Shown here in pieces: positions 30,068 through 34,818 of a stretch of DNA of 50,122 nt. The notes under the pieces were generated by a model that was not told the DNA's origin, searched no databases, and was given only the letters and a program-made list of their open reading frames with translations. This DNA is from Akkermansiaceae bacterium (GTDB lineage Bacteria; Verrucomicrobiota; Verrucomicrobiia; Verrucomicrobiales; Akkermansiaceae). The translations under genes and the position numbers were made by a program. The stretch lies in contig JANXMQ010000066.1 of the NCBI GenBank assembly GCA_025354565.1, forward strand, positions 1 to 50,122, written 5' to 3'. Numbering within the stretch: position 1 is the first letter of the stretch; each line of letters starts with the position of its first letter.

Positions 30068-31243
30068 ATGCGCAATCGCCAGCAACTCGTCATCGCCACG
30101 CTTCTCTGTCCGGGTTTCCAAGCTCAGGCGGAAAACATCCCGCAAAGCTATGACACCAGTTTCCAGCTCTATCAGGAGGATTCTGACCGGATCAAAGTGG
30201 AGTCCTATTATGCCCGCGGCCAAGTTGACATCAATGACTCGACTTCATTCCGCTTCCAGTGGCTGAGAGACGCGATCAGCGGAGCCTCGCCCACGGGCGT
30301 CCTGCCAGGTGCCGCGGGTGGCGGGCAGCCTTTCCTGTCGTCACTGCATGATGTCCGTTACGGCATCCTCGGCGCATTGTCCGAGCAGTTCGGAGACCAT
30401 CGGGTGGAACTCGAAATGTCGAGGAGCACCGAGCATGACTATGCCTCAAATGGCTTTGCGCTATCCGACACCCTTGAGCTGAACCAAAAAAACACGACCC
30501 TAGCCTATGGGTTGAACTATCTTCACGATACGGTTGACGTGCCGCGTCACCCCAGCGAGCTGAAGGAGAGCTTTGATTTATTTACCGGAGTCTCCCAGAT
30601 TCTGGACAAGGATACCATCATTTCCGCCAACCTAACAGTGGGATACGCCCATGGCTATCTGAATGATCCTTACAAGGTGGTCCAGCGGGATGAAACCGTC
30701 AGCATCCCAGATGGCTCGGGGGGCTTCATCACTTTTCCGGTGACGAACATTTACCCGGAAAATCGCCCAGACAAGCGCTTGCGCGAGGTCTTGCAATTCG
30801 AGGGGAAACACTACTTCCAGCAGGCGGACGGTGCCGCAGATGCAGTGTTGCGTTTTTCACACGACGATTACGGAATTTTGTCAGAAACCGCCGAGCTCGA
30901 ATGGCGTCAGAACTTGGGTGAGCATTTCCAAGCCATCCCATTTTTCCGCTACTATCACCAGAGCGCTGCGGACTTTTACATGACCACCCTCGACTCGCTC
31001 GCCATCGGCACCCCACCAAGCTCCCCGAATGGCAGCAGTCCTAACTATTCTGCGGACTATCGGCTGTCCTCGTTCGACACGCTGGGCGTCGGGCTCCGCC
31101 TGCGCTATCAATTCACTGACAATTTCTCAGCCACCGCTGCTTACGAACGCTACACCATGACGGGCAGCGGTTCCGACGCGGCACCGGAACAGGCCTACAC
31201 GGAGGCCAACATCTGGACCATCGGCCTGAACGCCAAATTCTAA
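30068..31243 (+). CDS. DUF3570 outer-membrane beta-barrel protein
   Basis: 391 residues from MRNRQQLVIATLLCPGFQAQA (signal peptide) at 30068. The mature protein begins ENIPQSYDTSFQLYQEDSDRI and shows alternating strands (YYARGQVDINDSTSFRFQWL, TTLAYGLNYLHDTVDV) up to the aromatic last strand TEANIWTIGLNAKF, as expected for an outer-membrane barrel. It matches the DUF3570 family, which is found next to ApbE, DUF4266 and thioredoxin-like genes. Its function is unknown; a channel or anchor for the exported redox proteins of the operon is my inference. It is the first gene; apbE follows 19 bp later. Confidence 0.85.
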   Translation: MRNRQQLVIATLLCPGFQAQAENIPQSYDTSFQLYQEDSDRIKVESYYARGQVDINDSTSFRFQWLRDAISGASPTGVLPGAAGGGQPFLSSLHDVRYGILGALSEQFGDHRVELEMSRSTEHDYASNGFALSDTLELNQKNTTLAYGLNYLHDTVDVPRHPSELKESFDLFTGVSQILDKDTIISANLTVGYAHGYLNDPYKVVQRDETVSIPDGSGGFITFPVTNIYPENRPDKRLREVLQFEGKHYFQQADGAADAVLRFSHDDYGILSETAELEWRQNLGEHFQAIPFFRYYHQSAADFYMTTLDSLAIGTPPSSPNGSSPNYSADYRLSSFDTLGVGLRLRYQFTDNFSATAAYERYTMTGSGSDAAPEQAYTEANIWTIGLNAKF

Positions 31244-31262
31244 CTTGTTTCCCTCTGACGCT

Positions 31263-32234
31263 ATGAGTTCAACGCTAACAAATCCTGTCCTGCCTGCCGA
31301 TGCACTCGGCATGAGGCTGCTTGATTTCAATGCGCTCGGCACTCAATGTTTGGTCAAATTCAAACAGCCGGATGAACGCAAGGCATTGGAATTCGCCGCC
31401 GAGGCGCTCGGTTGGATCGAGAGATTTGAAGCCAAGTTCTCACGCTTCCGGCCTGACTCGCTGGTTTCCCGCATCAATGCGGCCGCCGGACACGAGTGGG
31501 TGAAAACCGACCGCGCGATGGAGGAGCTCCTCGACATTGCCGATGGATTATTCACCCGGACCCATGGTATTCTGGACTCCACGATGTTGCCCTTGATGCA
31601 ATTATGGAACTGGAAAGTCGCCCACGCCGCGCTTCCGGAAAGCAACGAAGTGAAGGCCACGCTGGCGCTAACAGGCTGGAAAAAGGTGCAACGCCGCACG
31701 GGTGGAATTTTTCTCCCTATAGCAGGTATGGGCTTGGATTTCGGGGGCTTCGGCAAGGAATTCGCCGTGGACAGCGTGGCCAAGATCGCCCGGCAATTCG
31801 GGATCAAGGATGCACTTATTGATCTGGGACGCGACATCTACGCCATGGGTGGAAATGGTTCACATCCCTTCTGGCACATCGGTATTGAGGACGGCAACAA
31901 GCCCGGCAATTGCTGGGGCGGATTGGCTGTTAGCGATCTCGCGGTTTCCGCTTCCGGCGATTATGCCCGTCATTTCACCCACGCCGGCGTACGCTACGGC
32001 CACATCCTCGATCCCCGCACTGGCTGGCCCGTAACCAACGGCATGCGCGCCGTCACCGTGGTGGCCAACTCGTGCCTGGAAGCCGGAATCTACAGCACCT
32101 CGGTCTTCGTGCTGGGCACCCGCGAAGGACTCCATCTCGCGTCACTCGCCCGTGGCGTCGAGGTCTGCGCCCAAAGCGAACACGGCATCGACGGCACCCG
32201 CGGTTTCGGCAAATGGCTGGTAAAAAGCGCATGA
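31263..32234 (+). CDS. apbE: ApbE-family FMN transferase, variant active site
   Basis: 323 residues. ApbE uses FAD to attach FMN to Thr (or Ser) of target proteins, with Mg2+. Family signatures are present: DFGGFGKEFAVD (159-170) and HILDPRTGWPV (247-257). The C-terminal metal motif, ADxxxT in typical ApbE, reads CLEAGIYST (271-279), with Gly in place of Asp, as I recall for the DUF3570-linked clade. There is no signal peptide or lipobox, so it may act in the cytoplasm. A TTG at 31245 adds six codons, but the ATG is better. The neighbours make an exported flavoprotein the probable target. Confidence 0.9.
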   Translation: MSSTLTNPVLPADALGMRLLDFNALGTQCLVKFKQPDERKALEFAAEALGWIERFEAKFSRFRPDSLVSRINAAAGHEWVKTDRAMEELLDIADGLFTRTHGILDSTMLPLMQLWNWKVAHAALPESNEVKATLALTGWKKVQRRTGGIFLPIAGMGLDFGGFGKEFAVDSVAKIARQFGIKDALIDLGRDIYAMGGNGSHPFWHIGIEDGNKPGNCWGGLAVSDLAVSASGDYARHFTHAGVRYGHILDPRTGWPVTNGMRAVTVVANSCLEAGIYSTSVFVLGTREGLHLASLARGVEVCAQSEHGIDGTRGFGKWLVKSA

Positions 32235-32262
32235 ACGATCTCTCTCAACCAACTAAACACTT

Positions 32263-32757
32263 ATGAAAAACATCATCACGGCATTCCTCCTCACCTGTTC
32301 AGCCCCGATTCTATCAGCCGCCGATGGCGCCAAGGTCGGTCGGCCAGTCCCGAATCTATCCCAACTGCTACCCGGTGCCTCTGTCCCCAATACTGCGGGA
32401 AAGGTGGCGTTGGTTGATTTCTGGGCATCATGGTGCGGCCCCTGCATCCAATCATTTCCCGTTCTTAACAAACTCCAGTCCAAATACGGCTCAAAAGGGC
32501 TCGTCATCATTGGCGTTGGGGTGGACGAGGATGCGGCGAAATACAAAGCCTTCGCGGATAAGATGAAGGTGTCCTTCACCATCGTTCACGACGCCTCTCA
32601 TAAGGCCGCGGATTTTTTCGGCCCACCTTCGATGCCAACCAGCTATCTTGTGGATCGTAAGGGCATGATTCGCTATCTCCACACGGGATTCAAAGGAGCC
32701 AAGACCGAGGCTGAATACGTCACCGAAATTGAAAGCCTACTCGCCGAAGGCAAGTGA
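32263..32757 (+). CDS. TlpA-like thioredoxin, exported
   Basis: 164 residues with signal peptide (MKNIITAFLLTCSAPILSA). The redox motif is FWASWCGPCIQSFPVL (WCGPC), and the cis-proline region reads GPPSMPTSYLVDRKGMIRYLH, so it is a TlpA/ResA-like thioredoxin acting outside the cytoplasm to reduce disulfides. It lies 28 bp after apbE and 16 bp before the DUF4266 gene. In this operon it could keep the Cys of the DUF4266 tail reduced; this is inference. Confidence 0.93.
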   Translation: MKNIITAFLLTCSAPILSAADGAKVGRPVPNLSQLLPGASVPNTAGKVALVDFWASWCGPCIQSFPVLNKLQSKYGSKGLVIIGVGVDEDAAKYKAFADKMKVSFTIVHDASHKAADFFGPPSMPTSYLVDRKGMIRYLHTGFKGAKTEAEYVTEIESLLAEGK

Positions 32758-32773
32758 AACACCACCCACAACG

Positions 32774-33004
32774 ATGAACTCACCATTTTTTTTACTAACA
32801 TTAACGGCTGCATTCATCTGCCTTAGCAGTTGTTCCGATCAGCTTGTACGGGTGAAACCTTACGAGCGCGGCAATCTAGCAAAACCCGTCATGTCCGATA
32901 ATATGACGCCCTTGATCAAGGCCATGACCGAACACGCTTATTTCTCCCGTGAAGCGGCATTCGGTGGTGGTGGTGTGGGCGGCGGTGGTTGCGGATGCAA
33001 CTGA
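32774..33004 (+). CDS. DUF4266 small lipoprotein with Gly/Cys tail
   Basis: 76 residues from MNSPFFLLTLTAAFICLSSC at 32774. A lipobox (LSSC, Cys20) marks a lipoprotein. The conserved body contains RVKPYERGNLAKPVMSDN and EHAYFSREA, matching DUF4266. The C-terminus is GGGGVGGGGCGCN, with two Cys in a Gly-rich tail. The tail may bind a metal or be modified; nothing proves this. It belongs to the same operon as the preceding three genes. Confidence 0.88.
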   Translation: MNSPFFLLTLTAAFICLSSCSDQLVRVKPYERGNLAKPVMSDNMTPLIKAMTEHAYFSREAAFGGGGVGGGGCGCN

Positions 33005-33048
33005 TAAATTCTCAATCATTAAAACAAAAGACAACTAAAAACAAGATC

Positions 33049-33837
33049 GTGAAAACACCAACTGAAATGCATCGCAAGGCTCGCCAGTTTTTCTCCAAAC
33101 TCGGCTCACTACTGCTGCTATTCCAACGCACACCTATCGTCCAAATGATCCTGCCAGAAGCCCGGGTACTGGGCACCTCAGGCATGGGTGAGCTCGCAAA
33201 ATGGAGCGTCGCCTCCGTCGTGGGTCTCTGTGCTTTCGATTCCATCGCAGGCGCGTCCACCATCACCCAGCTTCAGCCGACTCCCGGATCTTTAACTGTA
33301 AACGCAACCCAAAACAAAAGCCTGGCTTTTGTATTCCAGGTGACCGGCGTTGACAGCCGTCCGGGCAGTTGGCAAATCATCGGTGCTTTGCCTAACGGTC
33401 TTAATCATAATAATGCGGCCTTCAACAGTGTGGACTCCATTTCGGGTATCCCAACTCAAGCCGGCAGCTTCCCCATCACGGTCAAAGCATGGGAATTCTC
33501 AGGCTTCGCCGGCCCCTCCACCTCCAAAGCGTTCACAATTGTCGTGGGCAATGGCGGTATCGCGCCTCTTCCGACCATCACGAAACAGCCAGCATCCTTC
33601 ACCATCAAGACCGGTAATTTTGTAACCCTTTCGGTTACGGCATCCGGCACGGGTCTCACCTATCAATGGTATAAAGGCGCAAGCGGTATCACTACCAGAC
33701 CTATCCTCACAGCCTCTGCCAAGACCGCCGCTTATAAAACACCCATTCTCACCACCACTAGCAAATACTGGGTACAGGTCAAAAACGCCGGGGGCACTGT
33801 CAATTCCAATACTGTCACGGTGAAGGTCACTCCTTGA
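33049..33837 (+). CDS. Exported Ig-like protein, copy 1 (candidate ApbE target)
   Basis: 262 residues with a GTG start at 33049, chosen by alignment with copy 2, where a TTG sits at the same place. N-terminal segment: RQFFSKLGSLLLLFQRTPIV, then GMGELAKWSVASVVGLCAFDSIAGAS. D64-S70 (DSIAGAS) resembles the ApbE flavinylation motif DxxSGAT, but AGA|S also fits a signal peptidase site. A putative-Ig domain (SISGIPTQAGSFPITVKA) and a second Ig-like domain (TITKQPASFTIKTGNFVTLS, YWVQVKNAGG) follow. Function unknown. It lies 44 bp after the DUF4266 gene. Confidence 0.8.
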   Translation: MKTPTEMHRKARQFFSKLGSLLLLFQRTPIVQMILPEARVLGTSGMGELAKWSVASVVGLCAFDSIAGASTITQLQPTPGSLTVNATQNKSLAFVFQVTGVDSRPGSWQIIGALPNGLNHNNAAFNSVDSISGIPTQAGSFPITVKAWEFSGFAGPSTSKAFTIVVGNGGIAPLPTITKQPASFTIKTGNFVTLSVTASGTGLTYQWYKGASGITTRPILTASAKTAAYKTPILTTTSKYWVQVKNAGGTVNSNTVTVKVTP

Positions 33838-33927
33838 TCCCCATTCTGTCTTGGGCCCAAGCCGCGCTTGCCAGCATGTGTAACGCGGATGGTGAGGGAA
33901 AGTAAGTGATCTACGTTTTCATTTCTA

Positions 33928-33966
33928 AACGCCCGTCTCCCCCGTGGAGTCGGGCGTTTTTTATTT
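33928..33966 (+). terminator. Intrinsic terminator after Ig-like copy 1
   Basis: Arms AAACGCCCG (33928-33936) and CGGGCGTTT (33952-33960) are perfect; an inner CTCC/GGAG stem is separated from them by a T-T mismatch. It runs into TTTTTTATTTT. It ends the DUF3570-apbE-TlpA-DUF4266-Ig1 transcript before the second copy, so Ig2 probably has its own promoter or relies on readthrough. Confidence 0.92.
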
Positions 33967-34029
33967 TCTATATGATCCAAATCCTCCCCCTTTGCCGGAT
34001 TGATTCACGATCCTTCTAAATCAAAAAAT

Positions 34030-34818
34030 TTGAGAACCCCAAATAAACTCAATCGTAACGTTCGCCAGTTTTTCTCAAAACTCGGCTCGTTGCTGCTGTT
34101 ATTCCAACGCACGCCCATCGTCCAAATCATCCTGCCAGAGTCCCGTGTGTTGGGCGTCTCAGGCATGGGTGAACTCGCAAAATGGAGCATCGCCTCCGTC
34201 GTTGGGCTCTGCGCCTTCGATTCCATTGCTGGCGCGTCCACCATCACCCAGCTTCAGCCCTCACCCGGATCGGCAACCGTGAAAGCAACCATAGACAAAA
34301 ACCTATCTTTTGTCTTTCAAGCGGTGGGTACTCTCAGACCACCGGGAAGTTGGCAAATCATCGGGGCTTTGCCCGCTGGCCTTATACATAGCAATGCCAC
34401 CTTCAGCAACGTGGACTCCATTTCCGGAATCCCGACTCAAACCGGCAGCTTCCCCATCACCGTCAGAGCATTGGTATCTCAGACCCTCATTGGTCCATCC
34501 CTCTCCCAATCATTCACGATTGTCGTCGCCAATGGTACTGGCACGCCCCTTCCAACCATCACGAAACAGCCTGCATCCCTCACTATCAAGACTGGCAATT
34601 TTGCGACCCTCTCAGTTACGGCATCCGGCACGGGTCTCACCTATCAATGGTATAAAGGCGCAAGCGGCAATACCATCAGACCCATCAAAACTGTCTCAGC
34701 CAAGACTGCCACCTTTAAAACATCCAACCTCACGACTACTTCCAAATACTGGGTGCAGATCAAAAACGCCGGTGGCATTGTCAACTCCAAGACGGTCACC
34801 GTGACAGTCACTCCTTGA
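34030..34818 (+). CDS. Exported Ig-like protein, copy 2
   Basis: 262 residues, exactly the length of copy 1, from a TTG at 34030 aligned to the GTG of copy 1. The N-terminal segment and the motif CAFDSIAGASTITQLQP are identical or nearly so; divergence is concentrated in the middle (residues about 85-170). The last domain again reads TITKQPASLTIKTGNF and YWVQIKNAGG. The similarity extends past the stop (CCCAAGCCGCGCTTGCCAG at both copies, 979 bp apart), so this is a tandem duplication. The terminator between the copies suggests the two are now controlled separately. Confidence 0.8.
   Translation: MRTPNKLNRNVRQFFSKLGSLLLLFQRTPIVQIILPESRVLGVSGMGELAKWSIASVVGLCAFDSIAGASTITQLQPSPGSATVKATIDKNLSFVFQAVGTLRPPGSWQIIGALPAGLIHSNATFSNVDSISGIPTQTGSFPITVRALVSQTLIGPSLSQSFTIVVANGTGTPLPTITKQPASLTIKTGNFATLSVTASGTGLTYQWYKGASGNTIRPIKTVSAKTATFKTSNLTTTSKYWVQIKNAGGIVNSKTVTVTVTP

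Follow-up and report, generated by a model that had tools for sequence, protein, structure and literature searches.

Each new substrate family of ApbE, the FAD:protein FMN transferase (FAD, flavin adenine dinucleotide; FMN, flavin mononucleotide), has widened the picture of extracytosolic electron transfer. One such family, DUF3570, has already been shown to be flavinylated by ApbE and is encoded in clusters of DUF3570, ApbE, thioredoxin-like and DUF4266 genes with a conserved DUF3570 site (Meheust et al. 2021, PMC8238504). Here, we analyzed a 50,122-nucleotide stretch (the window) of contig JANXMQ010000066.1 from an Akkermansiaceae bacterium (assembly GCA_025354565.1; class Verrucomicrobiia, order Verrucomicrobiales), which holds the same four families. 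Unlike the published clusters, it carries no DsbD in the cluster and adds a fifth gene, in this analysis found only in the class, for an immunoglobulin (Ig)-like protein with an ApbE-type motif in its leader. Thus, the operon is of a known kind, whereas the Ig-like gene is a new, class-specific component and a candidate ApbE substrate. We consider it likely that the Ig-like protein is flavinylated, as a second, lineage-specific substrate beside DUF3570.

Flavodoxin_4 and FMN_red, two other substrate families, were likewise inferred from apbE neighborhood and motif before their authors confirmed them at the bench; both have flavin-binding folds, whereas the Ig-like protein has none in evidence (PMC11334425). 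The cytosolic ApbE of Klebsiella pneumoniae that acts with fumarate reductase resembles that of the window in lacking a signal peptide, but its substrate stays in the cytosol, whereas the presumed substrates here are exported (PMC12052999). A literature search on DUF3570 and DUF4266 turned up only PMC8238504, the main text of which mentions neither Verrucomicrobia nor Ig-like proteins, and a search combining flavinylation, ApbE and Verrucomicrobi returned a single paper, on another phylum.

The window encodes two Ig-like proteins (coordinates throughout are those of the window, plus strand). Protein A (33049–33837, starting at GTG 33049 or ATG 33067) consists of a leader segment (33082–33276) and two Ig-like domains, as judged from a Pfam Ig_7 match (5.5e-10), a structure model and tandem-Ig matches. 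Its candidate flavinylation motif, DSIAGAS (33238–33258; Ser at 33256–33258), draws support from column conservation relative to control signal peptides and from covariation with the DUF3570 site. Protein B (34000–34818 from its earliest possible start, a TTG, with no in-frame ATG upstream of the segment; Ig_7 2.7e-11) is a duplicate of A, with its segment at 34063–34257 and the same candidate motif, recognized by sequence and column conservation, at 34219–34239. A sequence-only reading of this stretch had held that both copies keep the same N-terminal segment and that DSIAGAS retains the Asp, Gly, Ala and a hydroxyl residue of the ApbE motif. Both statements stand: the segments are 94% identical across 65 residues, with CAFDSIAGASTITQLQ in each, and the four residues are present in both copies. 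Between A and B, nonsynonymous (dN) and synonymous (dS) divergence amount to 0.035 and 0.50 in the segment and to 0.177 and 0.60 in the body, showing that purifying selection acts on the segment; with a dN far below that of the body, the most leader-like part is the most constrained, unlike a plain signal peptide. No further copies of the segment were found in the rest of the 5.1 Mb draft genome, which rules it out as a common export leader of this organism.

Across genomes, the segment is tied to the operon. Among 195 related genomes, 35 carry the segment and 44 carry DUF3570; the two coincide in 33, with the segment alone in 2, DUF3570 alone in 11 and neither in 149 (Fisher p 1.6e-25, kinship ignored). 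One of the two segment-only genomes has an adjoining apbE (L067) and in the other the segment lies near a contig end (L039), while in the 11 genomes with DUF3570 only, the DUF3570 operon is a more distant one (26–35% identity), the contig is cut or the match is partial. The Ig-like protein is encoded with or near apbE at 32 of the 36 loci of the order, apbE being missing at two contig ends (L039, L061), at a relocated copy whose genome has a decayed operon copy (L064) and at a collapsed locus (L069); at 30 of 34 named loci, which overlap with those 36; and at 16 of 21 loci of other orders, recovered by a profile search of the phylum (loci L119–L152 partly repeat contigs of L036–L071). The remaining 5 of these 21 are one contig start with TlpA and DUF4266 and four extra copies whose genomes hold an operon-linked one as well. 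Of 387 genomes sampled from the phylum, 42 carry DUF4266. The class accounts for 26 of these, and all but one of them (25) have the segment; near the DUF4266 genes of the 16 genomes outside the class no segment was found, some of these stretches being cut by contig ends. Three weak phylum matches (G465, G479, G381) showed no segment on re-scanning at E 1e-3 and were dropped. The segment gene usually lies directly 3' of DUF4266, with a different order at L063, L066, L071 and L148 and a distance of about 4.7 kb at L163, and its carriers include metagenome-assembled genomes (MAGs) filed as Verrucomicrobiaceae, Prosthecobacter and Akkermansiaceae.

The linkage extends to one branch of ApbE. When 89 ApbE rows were placed in a tree, one supported group of 57 rows (100/98) took in the ApbEs of all segment-linked operons but L170; within this group, the real segment-less operons form one subclade of five. 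Tree labels assigned by a distance rule are wrong for L155, L037_5469, L043_9785 and L047_12589; L090 has its segment on a different contig (L061), and L211 is part of genome G458, which has no apbE within the 15 kb read and a same-group apbE on another contig. The co-occurrence anticipated by the sequence-only reading is thus borne out, with the segment tied to DUF3570/apbE operons class-wide and mainly to one apbE group. Genome G054 has a collapsed operon, in which the segment is joined to a piece of DUF3570 and has lost the motif, and only one distant apbE turned up in the genome; this loss fits a link of the motif to the operon, as a single case from a 12.6 Mb, possibly mixed MAG. In the subclade of five (L076, L078–L081), the Ig gene is lost and the DUF3570 site has changed to DSLTGMTP or DSLSGETP.

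The target motif of ApbE has been given as D-x-x-[S/T]-G-A-[S/T], and in mutants loss of the Asp matters little, whereas loss of the Thr abolishes flavinylation (PMC12052999). DSIAGAS fits this motif at the Asp, Gly, Ala and Ser, with Ala rather than Ser/Thr at position 4; many relatives have the textbook form, such as DAVSGAT, DSVSGAT or DTVTGAT. Among 76 distinct segments (78 less two decayed ones, the truncated L068 and L069, a DUF3570-fragment fusion with no apbE), Gly is found in 76, Ala in 75 and Thr/Ser in 76, and these residues rank as the top two and the fifth among the least variable of 75 columns. The 78-row set lacks seven weaker segments (L170 twice, L171, L172, L201, L202, L204); in the set of all 86 distinct segments, decayed ones included, Gly and Ala are each kept in 84 and the hydroxyl residue in 86, so that its loss, named beforehand as a possible refutation, is not seen. 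Position 4 is A in 60, S in 20, T in 4, P in 1 and V in 1. Truncated L068 has GVT, and L069 has lost the motif. The Asp is invariant within the order (53/53), and its invariance everywhere is refuted by the other orders (7/23). Accordingly, the expectation that D64, G68, A69 and S/T70 are invariant holds nearly for Gly and Ala and fully for Ser/Thr, and for the Asp only within the order. The predicted signal peptides of TlpA (n=54) and DUF3570 (n=64) at the same loci, taken as controls, have column entropies of at least 1.35 bits, mostly 2 to 3.5, over the hydrophobic core and cut region, where poor alignment may inflate variability. The background frequency of D..[STA]GA[ST] is 50 in 397,692 residues, or 0.126 per 1000, across 844 other long open frames including DUF3570. 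Ig-like bodies bearing multiple flavins were considered and rejected, with only 3 motif matches in 46,598 residues, below background.

A comparison with DUF3570 itself helps to place the variants. The sequence-only reading, in proposing the Ig-like proteins as candidate targets, overlooked DUF3570 as a published ApbE substrate; the DUF3570 protein of the window (30068–31243; Pfam 2.7e-71) carries the presumed target site DAISGAS at residues 68–74 (30269–30289), aligned with its homologues. In aligned operons of the order, the site reads DAISGAS, DAISGSS and similar; in other orders, D-x-I-A-G-A-T in about half of the loci and D-A-I-V-G-A-T once; and outside the class, mostly N-x-I-S-G-A-[S/T]. 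Position 4 can thus be Ala or Val, and Asn can replace the Asp, in a family known to be flavinylated, although not every variant has been bench-tested, and AGAT in place of SGAT should be no obstacle for the Ig-like protein. Moreover, the two sites covary. Position 4 agrees, with Ser and Thr pooled, in 29 of 66 operon pairs (shuffle p 0.00025, kinship uncorrected, a number of the pairs coming from tandemly repeated copies of a single operon or from nearly identical genomes) and, for other orders, in 16 of 23 pairs, counted without L150–L152 (p 0.00125, kinship uncorrected). DUF3570 Ala is always paired with segment Ala (11/11) and the lone Val with the lone Val, while DUF3570 Ser/Thr is paired with segment Ala in 36 pairs and with Ser/Thr in 17; a weak trend is seen at position 7 (p 0.03). 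The AlphaFold2 model of DUF3570 is an 18-strand barrel (mean predicted local distance difference test, pLDDT, 88.7), its strands joined by short turns at one end and by longer loops at the opposite end, and Foldseek matches it to porins, FadL and OmpG, consistent with a predicted outer-membrane barrel in which the motif would sit at the outer end of strand 3, if the short turns are periplasmic as usual. At two loci (L054 6180–7468 and L048 10569–11650), DUF3570 runs across two reading frames, owing to a frameshift or an assembly error.

Several observations weigh against flavinylation of the Ig-like protein. The Fisher and shuffle tests ignore kinship, and a few segment copies lie away from apbE. 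Ala, not Ser/Thr, prevails at position 4 (60/86, with Ser or Thr in 24/86), and the Asp position in 23 segments of other orders holds D in 7, H in 11, N in 4 and Q in 1. The motif does not stand out alone, as G48 and L49 before it are equally invariant within the order, and it departs to GQS in L067 and to SAAT in the second L170 copy. Among the 50 structural matches listed for the Ig-like protein, there is no flavin protein or flavin-binding fold. In the ApbE of the window, the position of the catalytic Asp, 28 residues after the His of HILDP, is occupied by Gly. Finally, the motif sits at a fitting signal peptidase site, AGA|[S/T], before the first folded strand. The claim of the sequence-only reading thus survives in part: linkage and motif conservation speak for it, and the order-limited Asp, the signal-peptidase placement and the off-operon copies against it. 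That these copies refute the link was considered and dropped, as the genomes concerned hold the operon; L154, L156, L165 and L166, for instance, proved to be additional copies, each from a genome (G458 among them) with another copy beside DUF3570/DUF4266 genes.

The placement of the motif invites a simpler explanation, to which we assign a clearly smaller though appreciable chance, namely that the segment is a long conserved export leader, AGA|[S/T] its signal peptidase I site and the likeness to the ApbE motif accidental; the Ig-like protein would then serve the operon otherwise, e.g., through adhesion or by docking to the DUF3570 barrel. The leader has much of what such a site calls for. By simple counts, with signal peptides judged present or absent by eye, it shows the positive stretch (median net charge +3 upstream), a hydrophobic run ahead of the motif (12 residues in the median, within the 7–15 of a Sec signal core and short for a membrane anchor) and small residues at −3 and −1, position 4 being A, S, T or V with the exception of a single decayed copy and the −1 residue Ala. 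The folded part begins directly after the motif: the model shows well-predicted beta domains, like the tandem Ig domains of titin or DLAR, whereas the leader is poorly modeled (pLDDT 51–58), with the motif ending its last helix directly before the first strand. Autotransporters, proteins of very variable length, have extended signal peptides in which a long conserved stretch precedes an ordinary hydrophobic core. The segment is built in the same way and occurs on open frames of variable length (Ig-type, roughly 200 to 1376 residues, with one of 2604), but it differs in sequence (QRxP...GA[T/S]) and in its tie to the apbE operon. A Sec signal is, however, only weakly constrained at −2 and +1, and cleavage demands neither Gly at −2 nor Thr/Ser at +1 nor Asp at −6; these are nevertheless kept in 84/86, 86/86 and, within the order, 53/53 segments. 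Nothing comparable is seen in the control signal peptides of these loci, although alignment quality may contribute, and a mere cleavage site leaves both the apbE tie and the covariation with the DUF3570 site unexplained. Flavinylation and cleavage at the motif need not exclude each other, being compatible if modification precedes.

Other parts of the leader are conserved as well, above all Q-R-x-P at segment residues 15–18, which is kept across orders, with Q15 and P18 among the four least variable of the 75 columns. Neither flavinylation nor signal peptidase cleavage accounts for Q-R-x-P, which would suit a leader recognized by some other factor dedicated to export or processing, with G-A-[T/S] marking where processing occurs and no link to flavin. 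We regard this as improbable: no other travelling gene was seen in the loci scanned, in a scan aimed at the operon's own families only, and the covariation with the DUF3570 site would have to be due to chance.

Flavinylation of the Ig-like protein would fall to the ApbE of the operon (31263–32234; Pfam 6.2e-69, matches to solved ApbEs, alignment and N-termini), the same genome having ApbE matches on two other contigs. Active ApbE relies on a Ser-His-Asp triad (PMC12052999). Compared with solved ApbEs, that of the window keeps the Ser, 16 residues before the His, and the His of HILDP, and owing to the Asp-to-Gly replacement we do not call it a proven active enzyme. The same Gly is present in 47 of 51 aligned ApbEs, the other four being members of other systems, and also at L075 and L077, the operons nearest the Pfam DUF3570 model, suggesting that it may mark a DUF3570-linked branch rather than a dead enzyme. 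No signal peptide is seen by eye in this ApbE or in those of the segment loci of the order and of other orders. More broadly, Gly-for-Asp, signal-less ApbEs beside DUF3570 are widespread (window; L036–L090, L153–L173), although DUF3570 is exported.

Since these ApbEs lack a visible signal peptide, modification would occur in the cytosol, where ApbE, with FAD as donor, would load FMN onto the final Ser/Thr of D-x-x-[A/S/T]-G-A-[S/T] on the still unfolded Ig-like precursor. There is a possible precedent in DUF3570, which, when produced in Escherichia coli, was found mostly in the pellet and was flavinylated (PMC8238504), so that an unfolded cytosolic chain may serve as an ApbE substrate. Export would follow, placing a single FMN between the leader and the first Ig domain, from where it might relay electrons between the thiol parts of the system (the TlpA-like protein and the C-x-C of DUF4266) and the flavin-bearing DUF3570 barrel or outside acceptors. 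It is also conceivable, if rather unlikely, that an ApbE without signal peptide or the usual catalytic Asp attaches FMN in the cytosol to the residue at +1 of a signal peptidase site, and that this bulky group either blocks cleavage, which would leave the Ig-like protein leader-anchored, or yields an N-terminal flavin-threonine; flavin loading would in that case decide whether and how the Ig-like protein is released. If the Ig-like protein is indeed flavinylated, it would be a substrate for which no flavin-binding fold is known and in which a motif-bearing export leader is the conserved portion of modular Ig-type proteins, and a new sort of electron-carrying surface protein in relatives of Prosthecobacter and Akkermansia. 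The system also raises the general question of how a signal-peptide-less ApbE flavinylates exported proteins.

The close packing of DUF3570, apbE, TlpA-like and DUF4266 genes, followed by the Ig-like gene and its duplicate, was correctly read from the sequence and is supported by Pfam matches. The TlpA/ResA-like thioredoxin (32263–32757) has a signal-like N-terminus and matches Redoxin (1.2e-21) and, second, AhpC-TSA (2.2e-17), with a ResA model match (3.1e-23) below that model's cut-off. A DsbD_TM match lies on a separate contig of the genome. DUF4266 (32774–33004; Pfam 5.6e-21, alignment) is a small lipoprotein-like protein that ends in GGGGCGCN; its C-terminus, H-x-[YFW]-F-[ST]-[RK]-E ... 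GGGGCGCN, is nearly invariant across loci, while the remainder is variable. A strong terminator-like hairpin with a T-run follows protein A (33927–33959; −22.3 kcal/mol, z −5.8), although a simple terminator scan did not pick it up. The five genes up to A follow one another, and B, behind the hairpin, need not share the transcript of A. In the Ig-like frames of L157, L158, L161 and L168, a Gly-rich tract at the C-terminal end is accompanied by a hydrophobic run and a cluster of Arg residues, an arrangement which we take to resemble a C-terminal sorting tag.

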